Positions 5,674 to 32,144 of a stretch of DNA of 32,144 bases are shown here, in pieces (position 1 is the first letter of the stretch; the number at the start of each line of letters is the position of its first letter). Source of the DNA: Caulobacterales bacterium (GTDB lineage Bacteria > Pseudomonadota > Alphaproteobacteria > Caulobacterales > Caulobacteraceae); assembly GCA_947474805.1 (NCBI GenBank), contig CANJKM010000007.1, positions 1 through 32,144 of the forward strand, given 5' to 3'. The notes below the pieces were generated by a model. It saw only the letters and a program-made list of their open reading frames with translations. It was not told the DNA's origin and did not search any database. The position numbers and the translations under genes are program-made.

Positions 5674-6354
5674 TCAAACCTCGGCCCACATCCGCAGCAG
5701 ATTGTGGTAGGCCCCCGTCAGCGAAATGATCGACGGGTCCGACTGGCCCGCGGCCTGGGCGAGCCGCTGGATGGCGAGATCCATGTCGAAAAGCAGCGCG
5801 CGCTGCTCGACTCCGCGCACATAGCTCTGAATCCAGAAGAAGGCGGCGACCCGCTCGCCCCGGGTGATGGGCGTGACCTGATGCAGGCTGGAGGCCGGGT
5901 AGAGGATCAGGTCGCCCGCGCTCAGTTTCACCGAATGGGCGCCGTAGGTGTCCTCGACCATCAGCTCGCCGCCGTCGTAGTCGCCCGGCTCTGAGAGGAA
6001 CAGCGTGGCCGAGAGGTCGGCCCTCAGGACGCCGCCCTCGGGATTGGCGCGGATCGAATTGTCGATATGGCCGCCGAAGGTCTGGCCGACGCCATAGCGG
6101 TTGAACAGCGGCGGCAGGACGGTGCGGGGCAGGGCGGCGCTGGTGAAGAGGAGACTGGCGTCGAGGGCCCGGCGGATGATGTGGCCGGCGGCGCGCGAGG
6201 CTTCCGATGCGTGGGGCAACTGCAGGTTATTCTTGGCCATGGCGGCCTGGAAGCCGGAGGTGGCGTTCCCATCGCTCCAGTCGCCCGCGTCGATGATCCG
6301 GCGGCACTCGGCCAGCTGTTCGGGGTTAAGGACCTGGGGGATGTGGAGCATCAT
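5674..6354 (-). CDS. piuC: Fe(II)/2-oxoglutarate-dependent PKHD-type hydroxylase (PiuC/YbiX family)
   Basis: 226 aa; [35 protein letters not shown] (HxD), [29 protein letters not shown]; directly downstream of a siderophore receptor. Confidence 0.93.
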
Positions 6355-6434
6355 GACGGGCGTCTCGGATAAAGAGGCGCCCCATCCGCGAGCGACGGGG
6401 CGGGGCGCCAGGAAACCGCTTCCGGTTGGGGTAT

Positions 6435-8879
6435 TTAGAAGCGGTAGCTGACGGTGAGGCTGCCGAACCGCGCGTCGCTGGGGGTCGCCCAGCCGTTGTT
6501 CCGCATCCGCGTGTAGTAGGTCTTGTCGAACAGGTTGTTGATGTTGAGCCGCAGCTCTACGGCGTCGGTCGCGCGCCAGGCGGCGAACAGGCGGTGGACC
6601 GAATAGTCCTGGCTCTTGATCAGCGGGAGGGTCGTCCGGCCAGCGTAAACCGCCGGAACCGCGGGGGCCGTCGCCGTGGCGGCGACCGCCGCGACGCGGA
6701 CAACGCCGGCGTGCTGGGTGAGGTAGGTTTCGCCCTGGTAGGTGACGGCGTAGCCGAGCTGGAACCGGTCGGTGAAATCATAGGTCGCCATGACCGAGAA
6801 GGCGTGGTCGGGAACCTGCAGCAGAGGATCGCCCTTGATGAAGTCGGCGTCGGTGCCGTTGAAGCCGCCCCGGGCCGAGAAGTCGGACGCGCCCGTCAGC
6901 ACCTTGGACTTCAGATAGGTGTAGTTGGCGAACATCGACATGCGCCGGGTGATTTTGCCGGCCGCGCCGAGGGCCAAGCCGTCCACGCGCGAGGCGCCGT
7001 TCAAGAGCTGGACGGTGACGATCGGGTCGCCCGACGGCACACGGTAGTTGGTGCGCTCGTTGCGGAATACTGCGCCGTTGAGCGATAGTAGCCCGTCGCG
7101 GGCCTCCCACTTCACGCCGGCCTCGTAGTTCAGGCCCTCTTCGGGCGCGACGTTGCAGGTGTCGACGGTGCAGGCGCCGTTGACGGCCGTCTGCGAGGGG
7201 GTCTTGGAGTTGCCGGCCGAGACATAGAGGCTCCACTCCGGGCGCGGCTTGTAGACCGCGCCGATCCGGTAGGAGAAGAGGTGGTTGCGGTTGCGGAAGG
7301 TCGGGCCCGGCGTGATCGCGCCGGTGGTCGGCGGGACGACGGCGTAGGTGTCGGTCGAGTTGGCGCCCTCGTTGTTCTCGTAGCGGACGCCGCCGGTCAG
7401 CTGGACGTGCGGGCCAAGGGCGATGGTGTCGAACAGATAGGCCGCCTGGGTCTTGCGGTCGCCGTCCTGGGCCGAGGCCTGGATGTAGTTGACCGGGCCG
7501 CGCCAGACATTGTCCGGCGTGTAGATGTTCATCAGCGGAAGCACGGGGTTGGGCGTGGCCCCCAGCGGGTTGCGCAGCACATTGCCGGTGTCGAGCCGGT
7601 AGGTCTCGCTGAGGAAGCTGGCCCCCACGACCATGGTGTGAGCCAAGCCGCCGGTCGCGAAGGTCACGGTCAGGTCGGTCTGGCTGTAGAGCATGGTGTT
7701 GCGGGTATCGCGTACATTTCCCCGCGGTCCCGACAGGCTGTAGAGGCCCGGCGTCGCGCACGAAACATAGCCGGTCAGATCGGTCGCGGTCGGGGTCTGG
7801 CTGGTCGCGGCGGGCTGACGGCCGTCGGCGAGGCAGTAAGTTCCCTGCGGGGGATCGACGAGCGAATACTGCTTCACTGTCTGCCAGCGGCCCAGGCTGT
7901 GGATCGACAGGTTTTCGTTGAACGCGTGGCTCAGGACGCCGGTGAAGATGTCGATATTGGTCTTCTGGGTGTCGAGGTTGCGGTAACCGAAATAGGTCTC
8001 GCGGCTGACGCCCGGAACGGCGCGGCCGTTGTAGAAGGGGACACCGTATTGCGGCGTGTTCTCGTCCTCCTGGTGGAACCAGTTGGCGGTGAAGCGCGTC
8101 GAGGTTCCGAGCCCGAAGGCGATCGAGGGCGCGACGCCCCAGCGCTTGTATTGTTCGACGTCGCGACCGGGCACGTCGTTGCGATGCAGGAGGAGGTTGA
8201 GACGGACCGCGATAGTATCGCCGAGGGTCGTGTTGGCGTCGAGTGTCAGCCGGCCATAGGCGTCGGTTCCGGCCCCGGCGGTGATGAGGGTCTGGTCGCG
8301 CAGGCTCGGCGTCTTGGACACCATGTTGATGACGCCGCCGACCGATCCGGCGCCATTGTAGACGGTCGAGGCGCCGTTGATGACCTCGACCTGTTCGATA
8401 TTGAAATTGTCAGAGCGGCTGTACTGGGCGCTGTCGCGGACGCCGTCGAGGGTGATGTCGGCGTTGGCCGAGAAGCCGCGCAGGGTGATGCTGTCGCCGT
8501 ACCCCACGCCACCTTCTCCAGCTCCGAAGGTAATTCCGGGAACGGTCGCCAGCACATCGCGGAGGCTGAACAGATTCTGAGCCTGCATGGTGCGGGCGGT
8601 GACCACGGTCACGGTCTGAGGTGTATCGGCGAGGGGGGAGGTGAATTTGGGAGAGACGGCTTCGCGCGCCTGGCGCCCGATCACATCGACCCGCGAAACT
8701 TGGGCGGCGACGGCCACCGCGGCGGCGGCCATCGGGGCGCTCTGGGCCAGGGCGGCGTGTGGAGCGCAGAGTCCGGCCAAGCCCGCGACGGCCGCCGCAC
8801 CCAGGGCCGGACGGCTCAGGGATTTCACGGCTGCGCTCCGAGACTCAAGCGGGAGCGTGCTGCGGTTGGACTCGGTCAC
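6435..8879 (-). CDS. TonB-dependent siderophore receptor (Fiu/PiuA-like)
   Basis: GTG start at 8879 preferred over the 8957 ATG ([46 protein letters not shown]); [51 protein letters not shown] plug; C-terminal LTVSYRF. Confidence 0.94.
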
Positions 8880-8903
8880 GGCGTATCCCCGGTGAAAATG
8901 CTC

Positions 8904-8920
8904 TTGCGAAACGTTCGCAA
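8904..8920. promoter_or_regulatory. Inverted repeat TTGCGAAacgTTCGCAA, iron-regulator operator candidate (upstream site 1)
   Basis: Perfect 7-bp arms, 3-nt spacer; between divergent siderophore receptor and ybaN-like genes. Confidence 0.55.
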
Positions 8921-8926
8921 TATTAG

Positions 8927-8943
8927 TGCGAATGACTCGCATT
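8927..8943. promoter_or_regulatory. Fur-box-like sequence (minus-strand reading AATGCGAGTCATTCGCA)
   Basis: TGCGA...TCGCA dyad with overlapping AATG...CATT; matches the general look of proteobacterial Fur boxes; upstream of a siderophore receptor. Confidence 0.65.
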
Positions 8944-8997
8944 TTTAGGGGTGTCAAGAATGAAACTCAGGTGCATAGAAGAAGGTGTGATCGGGAC

Positions 8998-15023: not shown

Positions 15024-16175
15024 TTATTGCGCCGCAGGGGGGGCCGCGGCGTAGCGGCCCCATCCCTGGATCAGGGCGTGGACCACCATCGACCCAGCCC
15101 TGTAGGCGCTTTCGAGCGCTGGCAAATAGCCCGCGTAGGAACCGGGACCCTGGTCTGCGAGACCCTGCGCGGCGCTGACGCCCGGAGGCGGCATGTCGAA
15201 ATTACTGGCGGCGCGCAGCAGCATCACCCGGTTCGGATCGACCCGTCCCGCGGCGGCCAGGGCCGAGATGGCGACCATCGACCCGGCGTCGTTGGTCTCG
15301 GTGGTGACATAGGCGCCCTGGCCGTCGGTCATGTAACGGGTCCAGTCGGCGGCCCATAAGTCCAGCAGGGCGCCGTGCCAGAAGGTCTCGGCCGAGAGGG
15401 TGGCGCCGAGGTGGACCTTGGGCGCTCGCTGGGCGGCGGGATAGCCGGCATAGGCTTTGCGGACCGCCTGCATCACTGCGTCGTCCGTCAGCGTCACCCC
15501 CGCGGTCTGGGCCAGGGCCCATCCGGCCAGGCCGCGATTGAGCGCGATGACATTGCCCCCGCCGTTGCGGTTGAAGGCGGCCTTCGACCAGGTACGGACA
15601 TCTTCCTTGCTTCCCTGGACGACCCGAGGGGTCTGATAGGGCGACTGCTTGCCGGCGGGGAAGTAGCCGGTGGGCCAGTCCTTGGGGATTTCGCGGGCGT
15701 CGATCTCGTGGCCGACGTCGCCGTTCACCACAAAGTCGGTCCAGACCACATCGCCGATCGTGCCGGCGGCCGGGCTGATGCCGGCGATGCCGTTGAACAG
15801 CCAATAGCTTTTGGAGAAGTCGAACTGAGGATCGAGACCAAGCGCGGTAATGTTGACCGCCGGATGAAGGCTGTTGGGCCCGACCTTCATGGCTAGGATC
15901 GATCCGTCGGCGCTGAGATAGGCTGGGTTGAAGGCGCCGCGCACCTTGATCACGCGGGTCAGGCGTTCGCGCTCGACCCAATAGCGCAGCTCGCCGGGGC
16001 GGTCGCTTTGTCCGCCGCTGTCGCCCCAGACCGAGGGGCTGACCGCCTGGCCCGGCAGTTTGCTGGTCTCGAAATAGCTGATGATCACCACCTTGGGCGC
16101 AATCACCGCCGCTCCGGCCGGCGCGGCCGTCAGAAGCAGAGCTAGGCCAAGAGCGAGGCGGGCGACGAGGCTCAT
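15024..16175 (-). CDS. Purine nucleoside permease (NUP) family periplasmic protein
   Basis: Trimmed from the 16544 ORF; signal peptide MSLVARLALGLALLLTAAPAGAAV; VVIISYFE, WVERERLTRVIKVRGAFNPAYLSADGSILAMKVGPNSLHPAVNITAL; ATGA overlap with upstream gene. Confidence 0.85.
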   Translation of the reverse strand: MSLVARLALGLALLLTAAPAGAAVIAPKVVIISYFETSKLPGQAVSPSVWGDSGGQSDRPGELRYWVERERLTRVIKVRGAFNPAYLSADGSILAMKVGPNSLHPAVNITALGLDPQFDFSKSYWLFNGIAGISPAAGTIGDVVWTDFVVNGDVGHEIDAREIPKDWPTGYFPAGKQSPYQTPRVVQGSKEDVRTWSKAAFNRNGGGNVIALNRGLAGWALAQTAGVTLTDDAVMQAVRKAYAGYPAAQRAPKVHLGATLSAETFWHGALLDLWAADWTRYMTDGQGAYVTTETNDAGSMVAISALAAAGRVDPNRVMLLRAASNFDMPPPGVSAAQGLADQGPGSYAGYLPALESAYRAGSMVVHALIQGWGRYAAAPPAAQ

Positions 16176-18295
16176 CGGGTGGTCTTCAGGCCACGAAATT
16201 CCAGCATCGGGCCGATGTCGGGGGCCTTGCCGTAGAAGGCGCGCCACATCTCGCCGTAGTCGAGGGTGTGGCCCCGCGAGAGCACCAGATCGCGGAATCG
16301 CTGGCCGTTGGTGCGTGTAAGGCCGCCGTGGGTCTGGAACCAGGAGAAGGCGTTGTCGGCTAGCATCTGGGTCCACAGATAGGCGTAGTAGCCCGAGGCG
16401 TAGCCGCCGCCCCAGATGTGGCGGAAGTAACTGGTGCGGTAGCGAGGTGGGACATTGGGAAAGTCGACCCCGGCCCGCTTCAGGGCCTCGGTTTCGAAGG
16501 CGCTGACGTCCTTGATCACGGCCCCCTTGGCCAGGGTGTGCCACTGGATGTCGAGCTGGGCGGCGGCTTCGAGCTCGCCCATCTCGTAGCCCTTGTTGAA
16601 GGTCGCGGCCTTCTTGATCTTGTCGACGAGGGCTTGGGGCATGGGAGCCTTGGTCTGATAATGAATCGCGTAGTGGCGCAGCACCGCGGGCTCCAGCGCC
16701 CAGTATTCGTTGAATTGCGAGGGGAATTCGACCACGTCGCGGGCGACGCTGGTGCCCGACAGGGTCGGGTAGGTCTGATCCGAGAACAGGCCGTGCAGGG
16801 CGTGACCGAACTCGTGGAACATGGTCGTGACGTCGTCGAAGCTGATCAGGGCCGGCTGGCCGGGACCCGGCTTGGTCAGGTTGGCGACATTGAAGACGAC
16901 GGGCTTGGTGCCCAGCAGCTTCGACTGGCCGACGAACTGGGACATCCAGGCCCCGCCCGATTTATTGTCGCGCTTGAAGTAGTCGAAATACATCAGGCCC
17001 AGCGTCTTGCCGTCCTTGTCGAACACCTCATAGACGCTGACGTCCGGGTGATAGACGGGGATGTCGGCGCGCGGCTTGAAGCTGACGCCGTAGAGCTGAC
17101 CGGCGGCGTAGAGGACGCCGTTCTGCAGCACGTTGTTCAGCTCGAAATAGGGCTTCACCTCGTCCTGGTCGAGGTCGTAGCGGGCCTTGCGGACAGCTTC
17201 AGAATACATCTGCCAGTCCCAGGGCTCGAGCTTGAAGCCGGCCCCGGCCTTGTCGATCACCGCCTGGATGTCCTTGGCCTCCTCCTCGGCGCGGGCGCGG
17301 GTCGGCGGCGCGAGCGCGCGCATGAAGGTCTCGACGGCCTGGGGCGTCTTGGCCATCTGATCTTCCAGCACGTAGTCGGCGTAGGTCTTGTAGCCCATTA
17401 GGACCGCCTTTTCGGCGCGCAGGGCGGCGAGCTTCAGAACGGTCTCGCGGGTGTCGTTGGCGTCGCCCTTCTCGGCGCGGCTCCAGGACTGTTCATAGAG
17501 GCTCTTGCGCACGGCGCGGTCGGTCAGAGAGCCGAGCAAGGGCTGCTGGGTGGTGTTCTGCAGCGGCAAAACCCAGCGGTCCTTCAGCCCGCGCGCGGTC
17601 GCGGCCTCCGCGGCGGCGGCGATGTCGCCGGCGTCCAGCCCCGCCAGCTTGGCCTTGTCGTCGATGACCAGGCCGCCGTCCTTGGTGGCGGCCAGCAGCT
17701 TCTGCTCGAAGGCGGTGGAGAGGGAGGACAGCTCCTTGTTGATGTCCTTCAGCCGCGTCTGATCGGCGGGCCCCAGCTTGGCGCCGGCGCGAATGAACTG
17801 GTCGTGGACCACTTCGATCAGCTTTCGGCCCTCTGGTCCGAGGCCGAGCTTGGCGCGGCGGTCATAGAGGCTCTGGACGCGCTTGAAGAGCTTGGGGTTC
17901 AGATAGATGGCGTCGATGTGAGCCGCCATCTTGGGAGCCATGTCGGCCTCGACCTTTTGCAGCAGGTCGTTCGTATTGGCCTGGGTCAGGGCGTAAAAGA
18001 CGCTGCCGGCCCGGTCCAGCATTCGGCCCGAACGCTCCATGGCCACGATGGTGTTCTGGAAGGTGGGCGCGGCCTTGTTGCTGGCGATGGCGGCGATCTC
18101 AGTCGCCTGGATGCGCATGCCTTCTTCGAGCGCGGGTTGGAAATCGGCGTCCTTGATCTTGTCGAATTGCGGCGCCTGGTAAGGCAGGGGGCTGCGCTGG
18201 GCGAGCACGCCGGCCGGGGCGGCGAAGGCCTGGGAGGAAACAGCCATGCCCAGCAGGACCGCCGGCAAGGCCAGCCGCTGAATATCACCGATCAT
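16172..18295 (-). CDS. M3 family zinc metallopeptidase (peptidyl-dipeptidase/oligopeptidase), exported
   Basis: Trimmed to MIGDIQRLALPAVLLGMAVSSQAFA (signal peptide); FHEFGHALHGLFSD (HExxH M3 signature); FGGGYASGYYAYLW-like C-terminal motif GGGYASGYYAYLWTQM. Confidence 0.93.
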   Translation of the reverse strand: MIGDIQRLALPAVLLGMAVSSQAFAAPAGVLAQRSPLPYQAPQFDKIKDADFQPALEEGMRIQATEIAAIASNKAAPTFQNTIVAMERSGRMLDRAGSVFYALTQANTNDLLQKVEADMAPKMAAHIDAIYLNPKLFKRVQSLYDRRAKLGLGPEGRKLIEVVHDQFIRAGAKLGPADQTRLKDINKELSSLSTAFEQKLLAATKDGGLVIDDKAKLAGLDAGDIAAAAEAATARGLKDRWVLPLQNTTQQPLLGSLTDRAVRKSLYEQSWSRAEKGDANDTRETVLKLAALRAEKAVLMGYKTYADYVLEDQMAKTPQAVETFMRALAPPTRARAEEEAKDIQAVIDKAGAGFKLEPWDWQMYSEAVRKARYDLDQDEVKPYFELNNVLQNGVLYAAGQLYGVSFKPRADIPVYHPDVSVYEVFDKDGKTLGLMYFDYFKRDNKSGGAWMSQFVGQSKLLGTKPVVFNVANLTKPGPGQPALISFDDVTTMFHEFGHALHGLFSDQTYPTLSGTSVARDVVEFPSQFNEYWALEPAVLRHYAIHYQTKAPMPQALVDKIKKAATFNKGYEMGELEAAAQLDIQWHTLAKGAVIKDVSAFETEALKRAGVDFPNVPPRYRTSYFRHIWGGGYASGYYAYLWTQMLADNAFSWFQTHGGLTRTNGQRFRDLVLSRGHTLDYGEMWRAFYGKAPDIGPMLEFRGLKTTR

Positions 18296-18416
18296 CGATA
18301 ATGCTCCCAACGCGCCGCTCTTGGGCGGATTGGAGATTTGGCCGCTGAGACGCGCCGGAGTCCAGCGTCCAGGGGACAAGGCCGACGTTGGCTGCGGCTT
18401 GGCCTTAACCTGTCTT

Positions 18417-18432
18417 GTCGGGTTAACCTGAC
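18417..18432. promoter_or_regulatory. Inverted repeat GTCgGGTTAACCtGAC in the divergent M3 / Tat-FAH intergenic region
   Basis: 7 of 8 complementary pairs around a GGTTAACC core; a second TTAACCTG half-site copy lies just upstream as a direct repeat. Confidence 0.4.
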
Positions 18433-18482
18433 GACAGAGGATTGAAGCCGTGCGGCTGAACATGAAAAAGAGAGAGAAGACG

Positions 18483-19496
18483 ATGGACCAGGATCGCCGC
18501 GAACTGCTCAAGCTGGCCGGACTGGGTCTTGGCGCGGGCGCCGTACTGACGGGAGGAGCCTCGGCGCAGGCCGCCCGCCCGGCCGCCGCCGGTCAGCCGC
18601 GCCTGCGCGGCATCGACATCACCACGATCGTGACCGACGCCGGGCCCGGTCTTGGGGTGAAGACGCCGAGAGGCGTGCTGGACGTCGCCGGCGTCGAGCG
18701 CGATCGCCACCTTGGGCTTCCAATCCGGGCCATCGACGTTATCGAGGGCCGCGGCGACCAGCGGGTGTTGGCGGCGCTGCTCGCAAATGGCGCGGCGGCG
18801 GCTCCCGCCAGCCGTCTGATCCCCGAGGCGCGGGTGCGTTTCGGCAACATCGTCGACAAGCCCGGCAAGATCATCTGCGTGGGGCTCAACTACGCGGCCC
18901 ACGCGGCCGAGGGCGGGACACCCCCGCCCAAGGAGCCCATCCTTTTCAACAAATTCAACACCGCCGTGAACCACCACAACGGGGTCATCGAGATCAGCAA
19001 GGAGACCGCGCCGCCCAAATGGGACTATGAGGCCGAGCTGGTGTTGGTGATGGGCAAGGGCGGGCGCAACATCCCCGAGGCCACCGCGCTTGACTGGGTG
19101 TTCGGCTACGCCAGCGGCAACGACTTCAGCAACCGCGATCTGCAGTTCCGCTCGGGCCAGTGGATGCTGGGCAAGACGCAGGACGGCTCCGGTCCGTTCG
19201 GACCATGGCTGGTCAGCGCCGATCAGGTCGACGTCAACAATCTGCGCATGCGTATGCTGGTCAACGGCGAGGTGCGCCAGGACACCAATACCAAACTGAT
19301 GATTTTCAACTGCGCCCAGATCATCGCCTATTGCTCCAGGGCCTTCACCCTCGAGCCGGGGGATGTGATCTTCACGGGGACCTGCGAGGGCGTCATCTCC
19401 GGCTATCCCCCGGAGAAGCAGGTCTGGCTCAAGCCCGGCGACCGGCTTGTCACCTCCATCGAGAAGATCGGCGACCTGCACGTCACCTTGACCTGA
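18483..19496 (+). CDS. Fumarylacetoacetate hydrolase (FAH) family protein with Tat-like signal
   Basis: MDQDRRELLKLAGLGLGAGAVLTGGASAQA (twin-Arg), then FAH fold: IICVGLNYAAHA, DYEAELVLVMGKGGRNI, GYASGNDFSNRDLQF, GDVIFTGTCEGV. Confidence 0.88.
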   Translation: MDQDRRELLKLAGLGLGAGAVLTGGASAQAARPAAAGQPRLRGIDITTIVTDAGPGLGVKTPRGVLDVAGVERDRHLGLPIRAIDVIEGRGDQRVLAALLANGAAAAPASRLIPEARVRFGNIVDKPGKIICVGLNYAAHAAEGGTPPPKEPILFNKFNTAVNHHNGVIEISKETAPPKWDYEAELVLVMGKGGRNIPEATALDWVFGYASGNDFSNRDLQFRSGQWMLGKTQDGSGPFGPWLVSADQVDVNNLRMRMLVNGEVRQDTNTKLMIFNCAQIIAYCSRAFTLEPGDVIFTGTCEGVISGYPPEKQVWLKPGDRLVTSIEKIGDLHVTLT

Positions 19497-19564
19497 GCTT
19501 GACGCGACGCTAAGCGCCGCCCGGCGGTGGCTGGGCGCGAGGGGCGTCGGATGACGTTTCGTCG

Positions 19565-19596
19565 CGCCTAGCTTGAAAGATAGGCGAGACGTTTTT
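19565..19596 (+). terminator. Possible Rho-independent terminator after the Tat-FAH gene
   Basis: CGCCTA-GCTTGAAAGA-TAGGCG stem then AGACGTTTTT. Confidence 0.4.
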
Positions 19597-19771
19597 CAAT
19601 CGCCTGACCGTACCGGAGATCGGGCAGAATCCTTGGTCGCGCTCGCAGTCGGGTGGCTACCGGTCTCCTGGGCAGCCCTCCATAATGAGCATGCGGGAGC
19701 GTCCATTGCAGGCGTGATTCAGTTTCTGCTCCTGAAGCTCTCAGCCACGCTTGAGGCCGTTACACCCGGTC

Positions 19772-19787
19772 ACAAAGTTGACTTTGT
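19772..19787. promoter_or_regulatory. 16-bp palindrome ACAAAGTtgACTTTGT upstream of the EthD-like gene
   Basis: 7-bp perfect arms, about 63 bp before the start at 19850; a CAACTgAGTTG dyad follows at 19802-19812. Confidence 0.45.
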
Positions 19788-19849
19788 ACACCTTGGCGGG
19801 CCAACTGAGTTGATCGGGATTGCGGTCCCAATAATCAGGGGAGGAATGC

Positions 19850-20287
19850 GTGTTCAAATCGTTGGTCTATGTGGCCGCAGTCGCTTTCGCCGCCGGCCTT
19901 CCGACGGTGAGCAACGCTGCTCCGGCGGCGCGCAACTATGCTGGGATCATCCCCCAGGGCTCGAACATGTTGATGGTCTTCGCCAACCCGGTCGCGGGCA
20001 AGGAGGCCGAGTTCGCCGATTGGTACGAGACCCACATGAACGCCATGGCCAAACTGCCGGGGATGGTGCGCATCCAGCGCCTCCAGGCCGTTTCACGCCA
20101 GGGCCGTCCGGACGCCGCCTTCGGCTATTCGGTGTTGTATGAATACACTGGCGACGCCAACGAGATGCACCAGCGAATCCAGGCGGCGGTGAAGGACGGC
20201 AAGGTGGCGAGCCCTGATCCCCGCTATGTCGCCAAGTATGACTCGATGGTCTATCGCGCGGTGACGCCCGGCGTCGTTTCGAAATAG
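19850..20287 (+). CDS. Exported EthD-like / dimeric alpha-beta barrel protein
   Basis: GTG start, signal peptide FKSLVYVAAVAFAAGLPTVSNAAP; MLMVFANPVAGKEAEFADWYETHMNAMAKLPGMVRIQRL resembles EthD/ABM fold. Confidence 0.65.
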   Translation: MFKSLVYVAAVAFAAGLPTVSNAAPAARNYAGIIPQGSNMLMVFANPVAGKEAEFADWYETHMNAMAKLPGMVRIQRLQAVSRQGRPDAAFGYSVLYEYTGDANEMHQRIQAAVKDGKVASPDPRYVAKYDSMVYRAVTPGVVSK

Positions 20288-20351
20288 CAGCGACCCTTCT
20301 CCGACCTTTGGGCGAGAGCGGCCGTAAACGCCGCTCTCCGCATAGCAAAAA

Positions 20352-20381
20352 CGGCCCCGGCGCATCCGATCGCCGGGGCCG
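20352..20381 (-). terminator. Rho-independent terminator of the minus-strand DUF711 gene
   Basis: CGGCCCCGGCG-N8-CGCCGGGGCCG 11-bp stem; the minus strand continues TTTTTGC. A separate GAGAGCGGC/GCCGCTCTC hairpin at 20314-20338 follows the plus-strand gene. Confidence 0.8.
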
Positions 20382-20449
20382 TCCGCTTTGGGCTCTAAGG
20401 GGACTTGGAACTTGTAGCGGATGGTGGCGCGGGAGCGGCCGGTCCGGCG

Positions 20450-21685
20450 CTAATGAATCTTGGTGTTGACGATGCCGGGGGCGGTGAAGGCTGTTGTGTC
20501 GCCCTTGGCCTTGCCCGGCGAGGGCATCAGCCGAACGCTGAGCGGCTTGCTCCATTTGAAGGCGAGCCAGGAGGTATCGCCGATGATGCGGGCGATCTCC
20601 TGTTCGCTGACGGCGCCGGCCAGAGGCACCGTATCGACGCCCGCCGCGCAGACCGCCGACCAGGAGAGGATAGAGTCGAGCGTGAAGGTCCCTTCGGCCC
20701 AGCGTTTGGCGAGGGGGCCTTCCTCCATCACCGGGATCATCAGGCCTGAATAGCCGGTCCGCTTGACGGGCGTGGCCTGGACCGACCGGGTGATGATCCC
20801 CGCCGCGGTCATCGAGCCTGGGCTGCCGATCGGGGCGCCGAGGTAGGCTTCGAAAGCGGTGGCGATGGAGTAGTCGCCGCCCGGCGCCGGGGTGGCGTCG
20901 ATCCCTTCGTAGGTCCAGCCGGTGGCGGCGGCGACCTTGAGGGCGACGGCCTCGGCCTCCTTGGTGTAGCGCGAGAGTTCCTCGGTCAGGTGGGCCTGGG
21001 CCTCGACCGGATCGTGGTACTGGGCGAAGATGCGGTTGACGACATTGGCCGTCTCCATGGCGATGGCGAAATGCTTGCCGGGGCCGGTGTGCCAGGAGCC
21101 CGGGAAGTAGGGGCCATAGGGCTTCACCATGGCGGTGGCGGCGAAGAAGAAGTTGCCGTCCCCGTTGGGCGTCTTGGCGGCGATATCCTTGATTAGATGG
21201 GCGGTCTCACGCACTGCCCGCCAATGTATGCCCTTTTCGTCGGCGACCACGATGCTGGCGTTGGCGTAGCCCTCGGCGAGGATGGCTGGCAGGAGGGCGA
21301 GCGGGGCGGTGTCGTCGTTATCATTTAGCATAGCCGGGCCGATGTTGAGGGCGACGCGGTTGGCCTTGGCCCGGGCGTTGAGGGCCCTCAGCAGGGTGAT
21401 CGCGTCCTCGTGCTTCATGCCCTTGGTGTATTGCGGGAAGGGCTGGGTGGTGACCCGGCCGTTGGCGCCCGGAAAGCCGGCGTCGTTGAGGGCGGTCTTG
21501 GCGCTGGCCAGGAACTTTACCGTCTCGTCTATGCGGGCCGTGTAGTCGTCGGCGGAGACGTTGATGAAGGCCGTGACGGCGCGGATGCGCGGCCGGTCGG
21601 TCGCCGCCGTCTGGGCGAGGGCGGGGGCTCCTGTGGACAGGCCGATCAGCAGCCAGAGCCCGGCCGCCCAGTTCAAACTCCGCAT
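20450..21685 (-). CDS. DUF711 (UPF0210) family protein with signal peptide
   Basis: 411 aa; signal MRSLNWAAGLWLLIGLSTGAPALAQ; FFFAATAMVKPYGPYFPGSWH, GIDATPAP, GYSGLMIPVMEEGPLAKRW, LSWSAVCAAGVDTVPLAGAVSEQEIARIIGD. Confidence 0.88.
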   Translation of the reverse strand: MRSLNWAAGLWLLIGLSTGAPALAQTAATDRPRIRAVTAFINVSADDYTARIDETVKFLASAKTALNDAGFPGANGRVTTQPFPQYTKGMKHEDAITLLRALNARAKANRVALNIGPAMLNDNDDTAPLALLPAILAEGYANASIVVADEKGIHWRAVRETAHLIKDIAAKTPNGDGNFFFAATAMVKPYGPYFPGSWHTGPGKHFAIAMETANVVNRIFAQYHDPVEAQAHLTEELSRYTKEAEAVALKVAAATGWTYEGIDATPAPGGDYSIATAFEAYLGAPIGSPGSMTAAGIITRSVQATPVKRTGYSGLMIPVMEEGPLAKRWAEGTFTLDSILSWSAVCAAGVDTVPLAGAVSEQEIARIIGDTSWLAFKWSKPLSVRLMPSPGKAKGDTTAFTAPGIVNTKIH

Positions 21686-21731
21686 CTTCCCTCCAAACCG
21701 GTCAGGCCGGATAGCCAGTGCAATAGGATAT

Positions 21732-21751
21732 AGTTTAACAAGTCAACTGAG
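21732..21751. promoter_or_regulatory. Operator-like motif copy A (minus strand CTCAGTTGACTTGTTAAACT) upstream of DUF711
   Basis: 17/20 identical to the opposite-orientation motif at 23462-23481; quasi-palindromic AGTT-N9-AACT. Confidence 0.55.
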
Positions 21752-21778
21752 ATTTGATCTTGGCATCGCGATGGCTGT

Positions 21779-22591
21779 CTAGGCTTTGGAAAAGCGCAGG
21801 GCCGCGTCTTGCGCCGCTTTGTGCGCCATGGCCTCCATGCCGACGCGGCCGGACTTGATTTCGCGGACCAGCTCGGGCCCGGCGCGTTCGGGCGTGCCCG
21901 CGTCGAACGGCGGTTCGGGAGCATATTCGATCAGGAGCTGGACACGCTTGGCGGTGTGCTCATCGCGCAGCCTGGCGGCGAGGGTGAGGCCGAAGTCCAA
22001 GCCGGCGGTGACGGCGGCGCCGGTGATTCTGTTGCGGTCGGTGATGACGCGACCCGGCGTGTAGATGGCGCCCATGATGGGAAGGATGTCGGTGACCGTC
22101 CAGTTGCTGGTCGCCTTATAGCCCCGCAGCAGGCCCGCGGCGCCGAGCACCAAAGAGCCAGTGCAGACGGAGGTGACGAACTTGGCGCGGCTGCCGCGGT
22201 CGGCAAGGAAGTTCAATACCTCCGGGTCGTTCATGCAGGCGATCGTCCCCATGATCCCGCCGGGGACGAATAGGACGTCCAGATCCTTGGGGCAGTTGAC
22301 GAAGCTTGTGGTCGAGGCAATCGGCATCAGATCGGCCGCGATGGGCCCGACCTCTTTCCAAACGTAGTGGATCTCGCACTGGCAAATGTTGAGCACGGTG
22401 GCCGGGCCGATCAGGTCGAGCAGGACCATACGGGGATGGACCAGCATGGCGACCTTGGGTCGTGGCGCGCCCGGCGGAGGCGCATCGGCGGCGAGCGCTT
22501 CCGACCCAGGAAGGCCGGCTCCGCCCAGCGCGGCTCCGAGCGCCAGAAGCTGCATAAGCTTGCGGCGATCGGCATTCAGAATGTCGGACAT
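21779..22591 (-). CDS. DJ-1/PfpI family protein (isonitrile-hydratase-like) with Tat-like signal
   Basis: NADRRKLMQLLALGAALGGAGLPGSEALA; VLFVPGG, VTSVCTGSLVLGAAGLLRGYKATSNW catalytic-Cys elbow. Confidence 0.88.
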   Translation of the reverse strand: MSDILNADRRKLMQLLALGAALGGAGLPGSEALAADAPPPGAPRPKVAMLVHPRMVLLDLIGPATVLNICQCEIHYVWKEVGPIAADLMPIASTTSFVNCPKDLDVLFVPGGIMGTIACMNDPEVLNFLADRGSRAKFVTSVCTGSLVLGAAGLLRGYKATSNWTVTDILPIMGAIYTPGRVITDRNRITGAAVTAGLDFGLTLAARLRDEHTAKRVQLLIEYAPEPPFDAGTPERAGPELVREIKSGRVGMEAMAHKAAQDAALRFSKA

Positions 22592-22600
22592 GGGCTTCCT

Positions 22601-23443
22601 TTAGGCCCTATTGGTGCGGGCCTTGCCCGCCTTCACGAGGTCATCGCTGAAGCTGGCGATCATGCTCTGAACCAGGGACACGGATTCCGGCCAGGCCTTG
22701 TGCGGGCTGCCCGAATCGAAGGGCGGAGCCGGGTCGTACTCGGCCAGGAGCTGGCAAACACGGGCGTTGTCCGGCCCCCGCAGCAGGGCCGCGAGGTGAA
22801 GCCCGAAATCGATGCCGGCGGTCACACCGCCGCCGGTGATCCGGTTCCGGTCGACGACATAGCGGGCGTCGACCGGAATGGCGCCTACGGCCGGCAGAAC
22901 CTTGTCGCGAATGCCCCAGTTGGCGGTGGCGCGATAGCCCTTCAGCAGGCCAGCGGCGCCCAGGAGCAGGGGGCCGGTGCAGACAGCGGTCACGTAGCGC
23001 GCCCGCTCGCCCCGGTCGGCCAGGAAGTCGATGAGCTGGTCGTTCTTCATAGCGTCCAGGGTGGGGAAACCGGCGCCGGGCACGAAGAGGATGTCGACCG
23101 CTTTGGGCACATCGGCGTAGGTGGCCGTCGGCGACAGGGTGACGCCCTGGCCGCAAGCGACCGGGGCCATGGTCGGGGCGACCAGATGCACCTTAGCGCC
23201 CCGCATAGTGCTGAAGAAGTAGTGGGGCCCGATCAGGTCCAGAGCGGTCATGCCGGGATAGAGGACCATGGCGATGTACTCACCACCCGTGACCTTGGTG
23301 AAATAGCTGGGGTCGGCGCTGGGGCGCGGCCCGTGCTCGATCCGTTCGGTGACGGAGACGGGAGCGGCCTCGCCCTCGCCCCCAGCCAGGGCGGCGCCCG
23401 CCAGCAAGGCCGCCATGGCGATTTCGCGACGAGATAGCTTCAT
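22601..23443 (-). CDS. DJ-1/PfpI family protein (isonitrile-hydratase-like) with Tat-like signal, paralog
   Basis: MKLSRREIAMAALLAGAALAGGEGEA; ILFVPGAGFPTLDAM, VTAVCTGPLLLGAAGLLKGYRATANW; 9 bp upstream of the paralog at 21779-22591. Confidence 0.88.
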   Translation of the reverse strand: MKLSRREIAMAALLAGAALAGGEGEAAPVSVTERIEHGPRPSADPSYFTKVTGGEYIAMVLYPGMTALDLIGPHYFFSTMRGAKVHLVAPTMAPVACGQGVTLSPTATYADVPKAVDILFVPGAGFPTLDAMKNDQLIDFLADRGERARYVTAVCTGPLLLGAAGLLKGYRATANWGIRDKVLPAVGAIPVDARYVVDRNRITGGGVTAGIDFGLHLAALLRGPDNARVCQLLAEYDPAPPFDSGSPHKAWPESVSLVQSMIASFSDDLVKAGKARTNRA

Positions 23444-23461
23444 GTCGACCCCCAACCCGCT

Positions 23462-23484
23462 CTCAGTTTACTTGTATAACTGAG
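23462..23484. promoter_or_regulatory. Operator-like motif copy B CTCAGTTTACTTGTATAACTGAG upstream of the DJ-1/PfpI pair
   Basis: CTCAGTT-N9-AACTGAG perfect 7-bp dyad, 18 bp upstream of the ATG at 23443. Confidence 0.6.
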
Positions 23485-23514
23485 GGGCTCCGGTCATGCC
23501 GCGCCAATGTTGCG

Positions 23515-23874
23515 TCATATAGTGACAATGACGCCGTTGCACACCGCCACTGGCCAGGGCGTAAGGCCTGCGCCGAAGCATGGGCCGCCCAGGCAGGCGC
23601 CGTCCTCGACGGCGAAGAGGGCGCCGTGCCAGCTGCATTGGATTACTTCGCCGTCCGCGGCGAGATAGGCGTCGAGCTGCTGAGCGAGCGGCAGGCCCTG
23701 ATGCGGGCAGCGGTCGACGTAGCCCTTCACCGCGTCTCCCTTTCGGACCACGAAGCCGTGGAACCGCCCGGCCCGCAGCTGCAGCACGAAACCACGGGCG
23801 CCGGGGTCGGAGATCAGGTGTAGTTCGCCGAGGGCGACGCCCGGCGGCGTACGGGAGAGACGTTCGGCGGTCAC
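23515..23874 (-). CDS. Rieske (2Fe-2S) domain protein
   Basis: GTG start overlapping the maiA stop (GTGA); CPHQGLPLAQQLDAYLAADGEVIQCSWHGALF = CxH...CxxH Rieske ligands. Confidence 0.88.
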   Translation of the reverse strand: MTAERLSRTPPGVALGELHLISDPGARGFVLQLRAGRFHGFVVRKGDAVKGYVDRCPHQGLPLAQQLDAYLAADGEVIQCSWHGALFAVEDGACLGGPCFGAGLTPWPVAVCNGVIVTI

Positions 23875-24515
23875 GCCAAGGGGTCCGCGTCCGGTTGCCG
23901 GCTGGGGTGGGCGGCGGCGACGGGCTCTAGCGCCATCGCGGCGTCGGCGACGCGCCGGATGTTGGGGTAGGGATCGAACGGGACCTTGAACCGCTCGGCC
24001 GAATAGACCTGCGGGACGAGGCAGCAGTCGGCCAGGCTGATGCTGTCGCCGAAAGCGAAGGCCCTCCCGTGGCGGGCGATCAGGGTCTCGAGCGCGTCGA
24101 AGCCCTCGACGATCCAGAGGCGGATCCAGGCCTGAATGTCCGCCTCGCCGGCCTTGAACTGCGACTTGAGTTGATTGAGCACCCGGAGGTTGTTCAACGG
24201 GTGGATGTCGCAGGTGATCAGGGCCGCCATGGCCCGCACCTGGGCCCGATCCGCCGTCGAGGCCGGCAGAAGCGGCGGCTCCGGATAAGTCTCTTCCAGC
24301 CACTCCATGATGGCGCTGCTTTGGGTCAGGATCAGTCCGTCGGCGTCGAGCGTCGGCACCAGGCCCTGCGGCGACAGGGCAAGGTAGGTAGGGTCGCGCT
24401 GCTCTTGCCGGCGTAGGTCTCGCGTGACCTGTGAGAAGGTCGCGCCCTTAAGATTTAGAGCGATCCTGACCCGGTAGGCGGCGCTGGATCGCCAGTAGCC
24501 GTGCAGGGTGATCAT
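23871..24515 (-). CDS. maiA: Maleylacetoacetate isomerase (zeta-class GST)
   Basis: [74 protein letters not shown]. Confidence 0.95.
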   Translation of the reverse strand: MITLHGYWRSSAAYRVRIALNLKGATFSQVTRDLRRQEQRDPTYLALSPQGLVPTLDADGLILTQSSAIMEWLEETYPEPPLLPASTADRAQVRAMAALITCDIHPLNNLRVLNQLKSQFKAGEADIQAWIRLWIVEGFDALETLIARHGRAFAFGDSISLADCCLVPQVYSAERFKVPFDPYPNIRRVADAAMALEPVAAAHPSRQPDADPLA

Positions 24516-25816
24516 GGCTCGGACTGAGAGGCGAGGATGCGGGCGCGGCATTCGCCGAAGCCGATCGAGGCGGCGCCCGGAGCGCTGGCGCGGGCAACGA
24601 TGACCACTTCGTCGCCGTCCTCCAGGAAGGCGCGGGTCTCGCCGCTGGGGAGGGTGAGCGGCTGCCTGCCATTGCTGCTGATCTCCAGAAGGCTGCCGAA
24701 CGCTTCGCGCGTTTTGCCCGACAGGGTGCCGGTGCCGATCAGGTCGCCGGGCTGGAGGTTGCAGCCGCCCGACGCGTGGTGAGTGAAGATCTGGGCCACC
24801 GTCCAGTACATGGTGTCGGCGCCGGCGCGGCTGATCACCTGGGGCGCCAAACCCCCGGCTCGCATGCGCGCGGTGGAGATGCTGAGCGCGAGCTCGATCG
24901 CCAAAGCGCCGGCGGTCTGATCGCCGGCGTCCGACAGATAGGCCAGGGGCTGCGGATCATCCGCGGTTCGGGGCGGCTGAGGAATCCAGAAGGGCGCCAG
25001 GGCCTCGGCCGTCACCACCCAGGGCGATATGGTGGTGTGGAAGTTCTTCCCCAGAAAGGGACCGAGCGGCTGGTACTCCCAGGCCTGGATGTCGCGCGCC
25101 GACCAGTCGTTGAGGATGCAGGCGCCGGCGAAATGGTCCAGCGCCTTGTCGATGGGAATGGCCTGGCCCAGGGCGTTGCCCGGCCCGACCCACAGGCCGA
25201 GCTCCAATTCATAGTCGAGCTTGCCGCTGGGGGCGAAGACGGGCGGGGCGTCGGGGGCGGGCTTGATTTGCCCGCGCGGGCGGACGACCGGCTCACCCGA
25301 TGGGCGCACCGACGAGGCGCGGCCGTGGTAGCCGATCGGCACGTATTTGTCGTTCGGCATCAAGGGCGGGTCCGGCCGGAACAGACGGCCGACGTTCACC
25401 GCGTGGTTTATGCCCACGTAGAAGTCGGTGTAGTCGCCGATGCTGGCGGGGTTCCGCAGGCGGCATCCCTTCGCCTCGACCAGCATTGGCCGGACCAGGA
25501 TCTCGTGCGCCCGATCGGTCAGCAGACGGGAGACGTCGGCGCGAAGCGCCCGCCTCTCGGTCGCCGGCAAGGCCAATAGGGCGTTCAGCCGCGGCTCGCG
25601 GGCCGCCAACTGAACGGAGGCCGGGAGAAGGCCGGCCGTGGCGGCGGCGCGCAGATCCAGAATGGAGTCGCCGATGGCGACGCCGATGCGGGCGTCCTCA
25701 CCCGGTGGTTCGAATACGCCGAGCGGCAGGTTCTGGATCGGGAAGTCTCGGTGGTCGTCGGCGGACGCGACCCAGCTCTTGAGGTCGGGGGCGTGGGTCG
25801 AATCTAGAGATTTCAT
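24512..25816 (-). CDS. fahA: Fumarylacetoacetase
   Basis: 434 aa; [85 protein letters not shown]. Confidence 0.97.
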
Positions 25817-27102
25817 ACTGGGAGCTGGGCCTTGGTGAAGCCGCTCCAGCAGTCGTCGTAGTCGGACTGCAGATGCGAACTTTCGAGAGCAAAACGGGTG
25901 GGCTGCAAGGGGCGGCGGCCTTCGAACATGAAGGCCATGGTGCCGTCGATCTTATGGGGCGGGTTCTGGGCCTGGATGGCGATCTCGTAGGTCGATCGAT
26001 CCGGGCCGTGATGGCTAATGCAATTGTGCAGCGAGGCGCCTCCCGGCACGAAACCGCCGAGCTTCGCGTCATAGGCGCCGGTGATGAGCCCCATGAACTC
26101 GCTCATGATGTTGCGGTGGAACCAGGGCGGCCGGAAGGTGTGCTCGGCCACCATCCAGCGCGGCGGGAAGATGACGAAATCGCAGTTGGCCGTGCCCGGG
26201 GTGTCGGTGGGCGAGGTCAGGACGGTGAAGATGGAGGGATCGGGGTGGTCGAAGCTGACCGTCCCGATCGTGTTGAAATTGGCGAGGTCGTATTTGTAGG
26301 GCGCGAAATTGCCGTGCCAAGCGACCACGTCGAGCGGCGACCAGGCGAGCTCGGTGCTCCACATTCGTCCCTGGTACTTCTGCACCCATTGGGTCGGGGT
26401 CTCGACGTCCTCGTACCAGGCGCAAGGCGTGAGGAAGTCGCGCGGATTGGCCAGACCGTTGGAGCCGATGGGGCCAAGCTCGGGGAGGCGGAACAGGGCG
26501 CCGTAGTTCTCGCAGACATAGCCGCGCGACGGGCCGGCGACACCGACCCGGAACTTCACCCCGCGCGGCACGACGGCGATCTCGCCGGGGGAGACGGAAA
26601 GGCGGCCAAGCTCGGTGTCGATGGCGAGCGCGCCCTCTTGCGGCAGGATCAGCAGCTCGCCGTCGGCGTTGGAGAACACCTTTCCGGTCATCGGGATGTC
26701 GGCGCGGTAGAGGTGCACGCCCATGCCGGAGGCGTCGGCCGGCGCGCCGCTGCCGGCGTAGGTGGCCAGGCCATCGACGAAGTCGGTCGGCTTTTCGGAG
26801 GGGGGCAGGGGGTCCCACCGGAGGCGGTTCGGCCCGGCCTCGGCCTCATCGAACGGCCCCGAGCGGATCAGAGGGGCGCCCCCGTAGGGCCCAAAGCGCG
26901 GGTGGCCCACGGTCGGCCGCAGGCGATAGAGCCAGGAGCGACGGTTCTCTCCGCGCGGGGCGGTGAAGGCGGCGCCGGAAATCTGTTCGGCGTAAAGCCC
27001 GTATGGCACGCGCTGGGGCGAGTTCTGGCCCGTAGGCAGGGCTCCAGCGACCGCTTCGGAAGCGAAGTCGTTGGCGAAACCGGAAAGGTAGTCTTGCACC
27101 AT
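25813..27102 (-). CDS. hmgA: Homogentisate 1,2-dioxygenase
   Basis: [86 protein letters not shown]. Confidence 0.98.
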
Positions 27103-27104
27103 GA

Positions 27105-28163
27105 TTAGGCGTCCACCGTGATCACGCCGCGCCGGATCTGGTCGAGTTCGATCGACTCGAACAGGGCCTGGAAGTTGCCGTTGCCAAAACCCTGGTTGCC
27201 CTTGCGCTGGATGATTTCGAAGAAGATCGGGCCGAACAGATTGTTGCTGAAAATCTGCAAGAGGACGCCCTCCCGGCTCACATCGCCGTCGATCAGGATG
27301 CGGTTCCGACGCAGCCGGTCCAAGTCCTCGCCGTGGCCCGGAACGCGCTCGTCGACCAATTCGTAGTAGGTCTCGATGGTGTCCTGCAGCACTAAGCCCC
27401 GAGCGCGCAGCGTCTCGACCGTGCCGTAGATGTCGTCGGTGGTGAAGGCTAGGTGCTGGATGCCCTCGCCATTGTACTCGCGCAGGAACTCCTCGATCTG
27501 GCTCTTGTCGTCCTGGCTTTCGTTGAGGGGGATTCGGATCGCGCCGTCGGGGGCGATCATGGCCTGACTGAAGAGGCCCGTGGCCTGGCCCTTGATGTCG
27601 AAATACTTCTGCTCGTCGAAGCCGAAGATCTGCCGGTAGAACTCCGACCAGGTCCGCATCTCGCCGCGCCGGACATTGTGGGTCAGGTGGTCGAGCTGGA
27701 GGAGGCCGACCCTGTTCGCGGCTGCGGCCTCGGCGGCGCCGGGAATCGGCTCCCAATCCGCGAAGGCTTGGCCCGCGCCGACCAGATAGAGATAGGATCC
27801 GCCAATCCCTTCGAGCACCCGTGCGCTCGGCCCGAGCAGCGAACGGGCAGGATCGCCCGCCTTGGCTCCGCGCCGAAGCGCCTCCTTGTAAGCGTATTCG
27901 GGCGCAGCGACCTTGAAGGCCATGCCGTTGGCGGAGGGTCCGTGCTGCGCGCGGAAGTCCGCGACCTGCCCCGATGGCTCTTCGTTGACGACGAGGTTGA
28001 TCCGGCCCTGGGTGTAGAGCGTGGCCGCCTTGGTCGGGTGGCGGGCGGCGCCGGCGAAGCCAAACAGCTCCAAAGTCGTCTTCATCGCGGCTGGATCGGC
28101 GCTGGTGAACTCGACGAAGGCGAAGCCGTCCAGGCCCAGCGGGTTGTCGCGATCGTAATTCAT
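27105..28163 (-). CDS. hppD: 4-hydroxyphenylpyruvate dioxygenase
   Basis: [86 protein letters not shown]. Confidence 0.97.
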
Positions 28164-31276: not shown

Positions 31277-31675
31277 TTAGTTGGCGTTGGACGGGTTCTG
31301 CCCAAGCTGGTTATTGGTCTTTTTGCGAACGTCGTCGATGAACTCGGGCGTGACCGGCGCGGCGCCGTTGCCCCAGCTCATCCGGATATGGCTGACAATG
31401 GCCGCCAGCTGCTCGTCGGCAAGGTCGTTCTTGAACGAGGGCATGCCGTTACGCCCGGCCAGGATGGTCCGGGTCAGCTCGGTCGGGTCGCCCTTCACGA
31501 ACGGATTGCTGGCGAGGGCCGGGAAGATTCCCTGAATGCCGGCGCCCTCGGGCTGGTGGCAGGCCGAGCAGTTGTCGATGAAGGTCTGGCGCGGCTCGGC
31601 CGGCGCGGCGCCGCCGACAGCGGGCGCCAGCAGCGCCAGTCCCAGCACAACGGGGATGGCGGCGGCCTTGATCAT
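31277..31675 (-). CDS. Cytochrome c family protein
   Basis: MIKAAAIPVVLGLALLAPAVGGAAPAEPRQTFIDNCSACHQPEGAGIQGIFPALASNPFV (CxxCH), GRNGMPSFKNDLADEQLAAIVSHIRMSWGN (axial Met). Confidence 0.95.
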   Translation of the reverse strand: MIKAAAIPVVLGLALLAPAVGGAAPAEPRQTFIDNCSACHQPEGAGIQGIFPALASNPFVKGDPTELTRTILAGRNGMPSFKNDLADEQLAAIVSHIRMSWGNGAAPVTPEFIDDVRKKTNNQLGQNPSNAN

Positions 31676-32144
31676 GCCTGCTGCACGCGGGCATGCAGCT
31701 TGGCGATCTGTTGCCATGCCGACTCGATGGCCCCGGCCTGCCAGCCGCCCAAATAGGAGAGGTGTTCGCCCGAGAGGTAGATGCGCCCATCGGGTTCGCA
31801 CAGGACAGGGTAGGCGTCCCGGCGCCCTTCCTCAGACCAGCTGGCCCAGCCGCCGAGGTTGTAGCGGTCGAGGTGCCAGGACTTGCTGACGCCGGTCTCG
31901 AACTCCTGGGTGTATTCCGGGAAGATTTCCGTGCCCGCCTCGAGCGCGAACTTGATGCGGTCGGCCGGCGAAAGGGCGCTGACTCGGGCGGCGTCGGCGG
32001 GATTGACGGTGTAGTAGCCGAGGATGACGCCCTTCTTTCCGTACCAGCCGGTCGAGGGCAGGGAGATGTAGTTGACCCCAGGCTTGTCGGTCCAGACGTG
32101 GCCGCCGAAGATTTCGTGCTTGGTCTCCCAGAAGCGCGACTTCA
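31672..32144 (-). CDS. Flavin-dependent monoamine oxidase family protein, 5'-truncated by window edge
   Basis: Manual minus-strand translation: KSRFWETKHEIFGGHVWTDKPGVNYISLPSTGWYGKKGVILGYY...GRIYLSGEHLSYLGGWQAGAIESAWQQIAKLHARVQQA*; ATGA overlap with the cytochrome c start. Confidence 0.85.
   Translation of the reverse strand, partial: KSRFWETKHEIFGGHVWTDKPGVNYISLPSTGWYGKKGVILGYYTVNPADAARVSALSPADRIKFALEAGTEIFPEYTQEFETGVSKSWHLDRYNLGGWASWSEEGRRDAYPVLCEPDGRIYLSGEHLSYLGGWQAGAIESAWQQIAKLHARVQQA

Follow-up and report, generated by a model that had tools for sequence, protein, structure and literature searches.

Isocyanide (isonitrile) hydratases (ICHs) convert isocyanides to N-formamides through a cysteine thioimidate. 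Natural isocyanides may act as antibiotics or as copper-binding chalkophores, and ICH is considered to be defensive against isocyanide natural products (PMC10971408, PMC10792529). Two genes whose products resemble these enzymes, here called DJ1a and DJ1b, lie in a 32,144-nucleotide stretch of DNA (the window; contig CANJKM010000007.1, positions 1 to 32,144) from the draft genome (82% complete, 3.1% contamination) of Caulobacterales bacterium, assembly GCA_947474805.1. Both proteins have signals of the twin-arginine translocation (Tat) type and appear to represent an exported branch of the isonitrile-hydratase family that has drawn little notice. In ICH an aspartate is catalytic and a cysteine acts as the nucleophile; to our knowledge, these enzymes have no settled natural substrate. 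The two genes are as follows.

21779-22591, minus strand: DJ1a, DJ-1/PfpI protein, isocyanide-hydratase-like; Tat-type signal ADRRKLMQLLALG; Asp59, Cys143, Thr144.
22601-23443, minus strand: DJ1b, DJ-1/PfpI protein, isocyanide-hydratase-like; Tat-type signal MKLSRREIAMAALLAG; Asp69, Cys155, Thr156.

The best solved match of DJ1a and DJ1b is PDB entry 3EWN (E 3.5e-64 and 3.1e-66, respectively), followed by isocyanide hydratases, whose structures match the two proteins with E values of 1e-58 to 1e-46 over the DJ-1 domain of about 200 residues. Both proteins contain the motifs LDLIGP and VCTG, and so keep the ICH Asp and Cys as well as the Thr beside the Cys. An earlier note on this DNA had mentioned isonitriles among several possible substrates; this is the best-fitting of its ideas, the pair being nearest to isocyanide hydratase among characterised proteins, and it is this likeness that suggests the substrate.

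In a tree of the mature domains alone, which takes in relatives of the same class as well as plasmid-encoded ones, 14 Tat-type and 18 signal-less cytosolic proteins fall on opposite sides of one branch (support 98/97). The Tat-type side holds 12 Tat-type DJ-1 proteins besides DJ1a and DJ1b, together with two members that have no recognised signal, L132 and the long-branch L052. This split argues for an exported lineage whose signal was not acquired just here; DJ1a and DJ1b thus belong to an established branch and are not cytosolic enzymes newly given a signal. They fall in different subclades of the exported side (99/97 and 95/92), and are therefore not the product of a recent tandem duplication. 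Within the genome, all four distinct DJ-1/PfpI genes with a readable N-terminus encode Tat-type signals: DJ1a, DJ1b, one on contig C111 and one on contig C152. The C111 gene (L072, 1992-2804), which matches DJ1b at about 60%, is followed by a MarR gene and adjoins a homoprotocatechuate (hpa) degradation cluster on the opposite strand. In C152 (L073, 1585-6486) a contig frameshift separates the signal from the domain, and the gene adjoins an exported M20 peptidase. A gene for an N-formylglutamate amidohydrolase is found about 1.6 kb from the C152 DJ-1 gene; this nearness of a deformylase to a putative hydratase of isonitriles may be due to chance. Searches of the open-access literature brought up no description of Tat-exported DJ-1/PfpI proteins, an absence that is itself weak evidence.

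DJ1b and DJ1a are separated by 9 nt, and the homogentisate operon lies upstream of DJ1b on the same strand, across a 71-nt gap that contains an interrupted palindrome.

23515-28163, minus strand: homogentisate operon, encoding HPPD, HmgA, fumarylacetoacetase, GST-type maleylacetoacetate isomerase and a Rieske protein.
23462-23482, given for the minus strand: interrupted palindrome TCAGTTATACAAGTAAACTGA, just upstream of DJ1b; candidate operator.

The palindrome (TCAGTT-N9-AACTGA) has no other occurrence in the rest of the window, and it is present in a second copy of the region, on C218 (L071) of the same assembly. Positions 1-5181 of C218 are collinear with 22138-27322 of the window (88.7% identical DNA) and hold HmgA, fumarylacetoacetase, the isomerase, the Rieske protein, DJ1b and the start of DJ1a. 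Between the two copies DJ1b has a dN/dS of 0.089 and the available part of DJ1a one of 0.175, similar to the operon enzymes (0.14-0.16), and both Tat-type signals are kept. The bin probably contains DNA of two closely related strains or species, or else a duplicated stretch; a 400-kb sample of the genome (20 x 20 kb) showed no second case of this kind. The earlier note had placed the whole exported run described below beside the homogentisate operon. The recurrence on C218 upholds this linkage for DJ1b-DJ1a, and the remaining genes do not share it.

The pair may have a link to tyrosine/homogentisate breakdown. Its position beside the operon, taken with that of the C111 gene beside the hpa cluster, points to chemistry related to tyrosine, or else to a protective role against di-hydroxy aromatics that have been oxidised. 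The second possibility underlies the main rival to isonitrile-like hydration, in which DJ1a and DJ1b are periplasmic stress proteins whose same cysteine handles reactive carbonyls, quinones or peroxides formed by auto-oxidation of homogentisate or homoprotocatechuate. Exported DJ-1 genes do lie beside both clusters in this genome, both pathways have easily oxidised di-hydroxy aromatics, and in Thalassospira one exported relative follows katG. Nevertheless, the two proteins are much closer in sequence to isocyanide hydratase than to other named DJ-1 homologues in the PDB, they score well short of the NCBIfam cut-offs for PfpI/YhbO and for DJ-1, and exported relatives in other places do not have aromatic genes nearby. 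A stress role is thus considered unlikely, though it is to be taken seriously.

Elsewhere, the exported lineage is often found near receptors and copper proteins. In Methylocystis iwaonis and on two Methylosinus plasmids the exported DJ-1 gene begins 8-9 nt after a gene for a TonB-dependent receptor, and in genomes G159 and G383 it directly follows a TonB receptor gene. These five loci share the stretch HDMSxM between signal and domain, which resembles a His/Met copper motif; in the tree they form one group, which includes L132 (89/85), and hence are not independent of one another. In G159 the copper chaperone PCuAC is also encoded in the neighbourhood, as is a PepSY protein. On plasmid pAtS4e of Allorhizobium ampelinum S4 (L142, 10917-13278), overlapping genes for PCuAC, SCO1/SenC and a Tat-type DJ-1 protein of the DJ1a subclade sit behind a metallophore-type ABC importer. 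A TonB receptor or PCuAC/SCO gene is within reach at 7 of 12 exported-lineage loci as against 0 of 22 cytosolic loci, a comparison in which C152 qualifies only at about 1.8 kb and in which flank lengths differ between loci, being about 1.5 kb for most cytosolic ones. The association is a lead, not proof. It suggests that the exported form, beside receptors and copper chaperones, serves periplasmic defence or the recovery of copper from such chelators.

The preferred explanation, to which as a whole we assign a probability of roughly 0.55, is that DJ1a and DJ1b are periplasmic hydratases of isonitrile-like compounds, possibly metal chelators, and that the run of seven genes to which they belong consists of three adjacent transcription-unit-like blocks. 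The signal sequences, the catalytic residues, the grouping in the tree and the linkage to the homogentisate operon on two contigs are observed; export itself, activity and substrate are inferred. The two proteins would fold in the cytoplasm and then be exported by Tat. In the periplasm the conserved Cys, with the Asp and the adjacent Thr, would hydrate an isonitrile or a similar electrophilic small molecule, yielding a formamide before the compound reaches or damages the cell. Three observations weigh against this explanation. In DJ1b as encoded on C218, the residue next to the Cys is Ile instead of Thr, which argues against strictly conserved isocyanide-hydratase chemistry. As C218 is part of the same assembly, the homogentisate linkage is that of one close relative or duplicate and not of an independent lineage. 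Finally, exported relatives elsewhere lie beside TonB receptors, copper chaperones or katG, and not beside aromatic catabolism.

A bolder extension of hydration by the exported pair would make Tat-exported ICH-like DJ-1 proteins periplasmic metallophore-processing enzymes. A TonB receptor would import an isonitrile copper chelator (a chalkophore), the hydratase would turn its isonitrile into a formamide without hold on copper, and the freed metal would be picked up by PCuAC/SCO proteins. Many natural isonitriles are derived from tyrosine, and for this reason the genus of the window may have put the same chemistry to use next to the catabolism of tyrosine and 4-hydroxyphenylacetate. This whole scheme is speculative and we hold it to be improbable. 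An exported branch encoded directly behind TonB receptors and accompanied by copper chaperones would give isocyanide hydratases a physiological place, and would open to test the question of whether bacteria obtain copper from isonitrile chelators through destruction of these compounds in the periplasm.

The pair forms one end of a run of seven consecutive open reading frames with export signals (15024-23443), as the earlier note had reported. All seven are in place and begin with Sec-like or Tat-like N-termini, and the twin arginines it had read are present in the FAH-family protein (DRRELLK), DJ1a (DRRKLM) and DJ1b (SRREIA). Its family assignments hold in Pfam for the NUP, M3, FAA_hydrolase, DUF711 and two DJ-1/PfpI proteins; the assignment to EthD found no Pfam match. 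The other five genes are as follows.

15024-16175, minus strand: NUP-family protein (PF06516); Sec-like signal; Pfam match.
16172-18295, minus strand: M3 peptidyl-dipeptidase (Dcp-like); Sec-like signal; HEFGH at 494.
18483-19496, plus strand: FAH-superfamily hydrolase; Tat-like signal; Pfam FAA_hydrolase match.
19850-20287, plus strand: EthD-like small protein; GTG start; Sec-like signal.
20450-21685, minus strand: DUF711 (UPF0210) protein; Sec-like signal; Pfam match.

The NUP start codon overlaps the M3 stop codon (ATGA, a 4-nt overlap at 16172-16175), FAH and the EthD-like gene are separated by 353 nt on the plus strand, and DJ1a is followed on its own strand by DUF711 after 93 nt. This pattern of strand and spacing argues for three blocks rather than one unit, namely M3/Dcp-NUP, FAH-EthD-like, and DJ1b-DJ1a possibly with DUF711. 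Scans for promoters and terminators yielded no signal beyond what chance would give. A recent foreign island has no compositional support, the seven genes being like the homogentisate genes in GC and GC3 (GC at third codon positions), although among relatives four of these families seldom occur. Carriage of the cluster by a plasmid was likewise rejected: no plasmid record carrying the cluster was found, the EthD-like gene having one weak match there and DUF711 distant matches only.

Export of the seven proteins is predicted from their signal sequences and mostly backed by homologues. A heuristic that looks for a charged n-region, a hydrophobic core and a cleavage-like motif accepts six of the seven N-termini at the called starts. 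The seventh, DJ1b, requires the ATG at 23443, the start chosen by the gene caller being 27 nt further downstream; the N-terminus then reads MKLSRREIAMAALLAGAALA. False signals due to wrong start codons are unlikely, as the signals recur in homologues and the twin arginines and hydrophobic core are kept in the C218 copies of DJ1b and DJ1a. Exported homologues exist for all of the proteins except the EthD-like one.

The same heuristic is positive for 81-96 of the 397 genes called in the 400-kb sample (20-24%), with mild clustering: the probability that a gene looks exported is 0.28 after an exported gene and 0.20 after a non-exported one. Runs of seven are then expected 0.03 times per genome under independence and 0.2 times under a Markov model with neighbour correlation, and the longest run in the sample is five. 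A run of seven, picked after the fact, is thus unusual but not decisive. These figures bear on the view that, in a bacterium exporting many enzymes, the seven genes came to lie together by chance and not even neighbours are functionally united. Among the few sampled proteins, Tat-type versions of other usually cytosolic families were also found, namely a class-V aminotransferase and a xylose-isomerase-like TIM-barrel protein, in keeping with this view. The C218 copy, by contrast, keeps the DJ1b-DJ1a order under purifying selection, and the ATGA overlap of M3 and NUP indicates pairwise organisation at least. Chance clustering throughout is accordingly rated as rather improbable.

The earlier note went further and suggested that the seven genes could form a single periplasmic catabolic or detoxification module, to be sought as a neighbourhood in relatives. 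That comparison went against the module, which is rejected since the genes were not found together elsewhere. Ortholog-like thresholds were used for these searches. At E 1e-60, 98 other genomes of the family hold no relative of the exported FAH, nor do 288 other genomes of the class at E 1e-75; the EthD-like protein has none at E 1e-12 in genomes of the family; and DUF711 has none in 59 relatives or in the 288 class genomes. NUP has two distant relatives only, and it is not nearby at any of 29 other M3 loci. A scan of GTDB contigs gave only two close relatives of DUF711, one at 59% in an acidobacterial metagenome-assembled genome (MAG) and one at about 71-74% in an alphaproteobacterial MAG. 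The other six genes are not beside either of them, the neighbours being unrelated; the alphaproteobacterial contig ends inside DUF711, leaving one side readable. No relative was found to carry any two of the three blocks together. Against the adjacency of seven exported proteins beside aromatic-catabolic genes, and the low number of such runs expected per genome, stand these absences, the three separate strand blocks, and the lack of any obvious sequence among dipeptidase, nucleosidase-like, FAH, DUF711 and ICH-like chemistries. A single module is therefore regarded as very improbable. Overall, the observation is right, the module is not supported, and a smaller, better-defined finding, the DJ-1 pair, takes its place; a striking run of exported enzymes need not form a pathway.

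The five other proteins are best considered separately. The NUP domain is full-length (PF06516, E 1e-96), a relative in L079 is exported, and a single-sequence AlphaFold model is too poor to use (pLDDT 34). The M3 protein lies just above the equivalog cut-off of PRK10280; its homologues are common, and most of the 29 are exported. The likeliest role of M3/Dcp and NUP is in processing oligopeptides and nucleosides that enter through the outer membrane. The putative catalytic residues of FAH are present (H140/E143, E183/E185, D214, K231), and in G409 an exported relative (45%) is followed by an exported RidA-family protein (L020, 9285-11045). Another exported RidA is encoded at L011, 3514-3969. 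The DUF711 protein matches PF05167 over 370 residues and PDB entry 2HA9 at E 8e-12; its relative in L010, from another phylum, is also exported. Only one paper naming DUF711 was found in the open-access literature, an absence that is again weak evidence. Even at E=5 the EthD-like protein finds nothing in Pfam, and its relatives weakly match DUF4286, not EthD; none of the readable ones has a signal. Its single-sequence model (pLDDT 63) has beta-alpha-beta elements and matches 2FTR (EthD) weakly, among many unrelated structures. It is probably best described as a small protein of uncertain fold.

Some further features of the window lie outside the run. At 31277-32142 the end of a flavin amine oxidase gene is found with an exported cytochrome c and further exported proteins (including DUF6152), and a similar pair, a Tat amine oxidase and a cytochrome, occurs at L026, 8130-10136. 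At 5674-8957 a TonB-dependent receptor precedes a PiuC-like PKHD-type 2OG-Fe(II) hydroxylase; together they form an iron-uptake pair.

Compared with described systems, the M3 protein is ordinary: it matches peptidyl-dipeptidase Dcp at the level of PRK10280, exported M3 proteins are usual in this order, and there is no notable difference. The FAH protein shares PF01557 and the HxxE, ExE, D and K residues with HpaG, 2,4-diketo-3-deoxyrhamnonate hydrolase and FAHD1, but differs from these named subfamilies in its Tat-like signal and scores far below every curated cut-off, so that no substrate can be assigned by name. The DUF711 protein shares the PF05167 domain with UPF0210/DUF711 proteins such as 2HA9 and differs by its signal peptide; the family belongs with RNR and PFL in a ten-stranded barrel group (PMC4390871). 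DJ1a and DJ1b share with isocyanide hydratase InhA/ICH (PDB 3NON, 6NI4) the DJ-1 domain, the conserved Asp and the nucleophilic Cys; the Thr that follows the Cys is present in both, but is Ile in DJ1b of C218. Known ICHs are described as cytosolic, whereas DJ1a and DJ1b have Tat-type signals and lie outside the cytosolic group of the tree. The ThiJ/PfpI structure 3EWN matches the receptor-linked Methylocystis protein (2.6e-80) more strongly than it matches DJ1a or DJ1b, and is probably a member of the same exported DJ-1 lineage.

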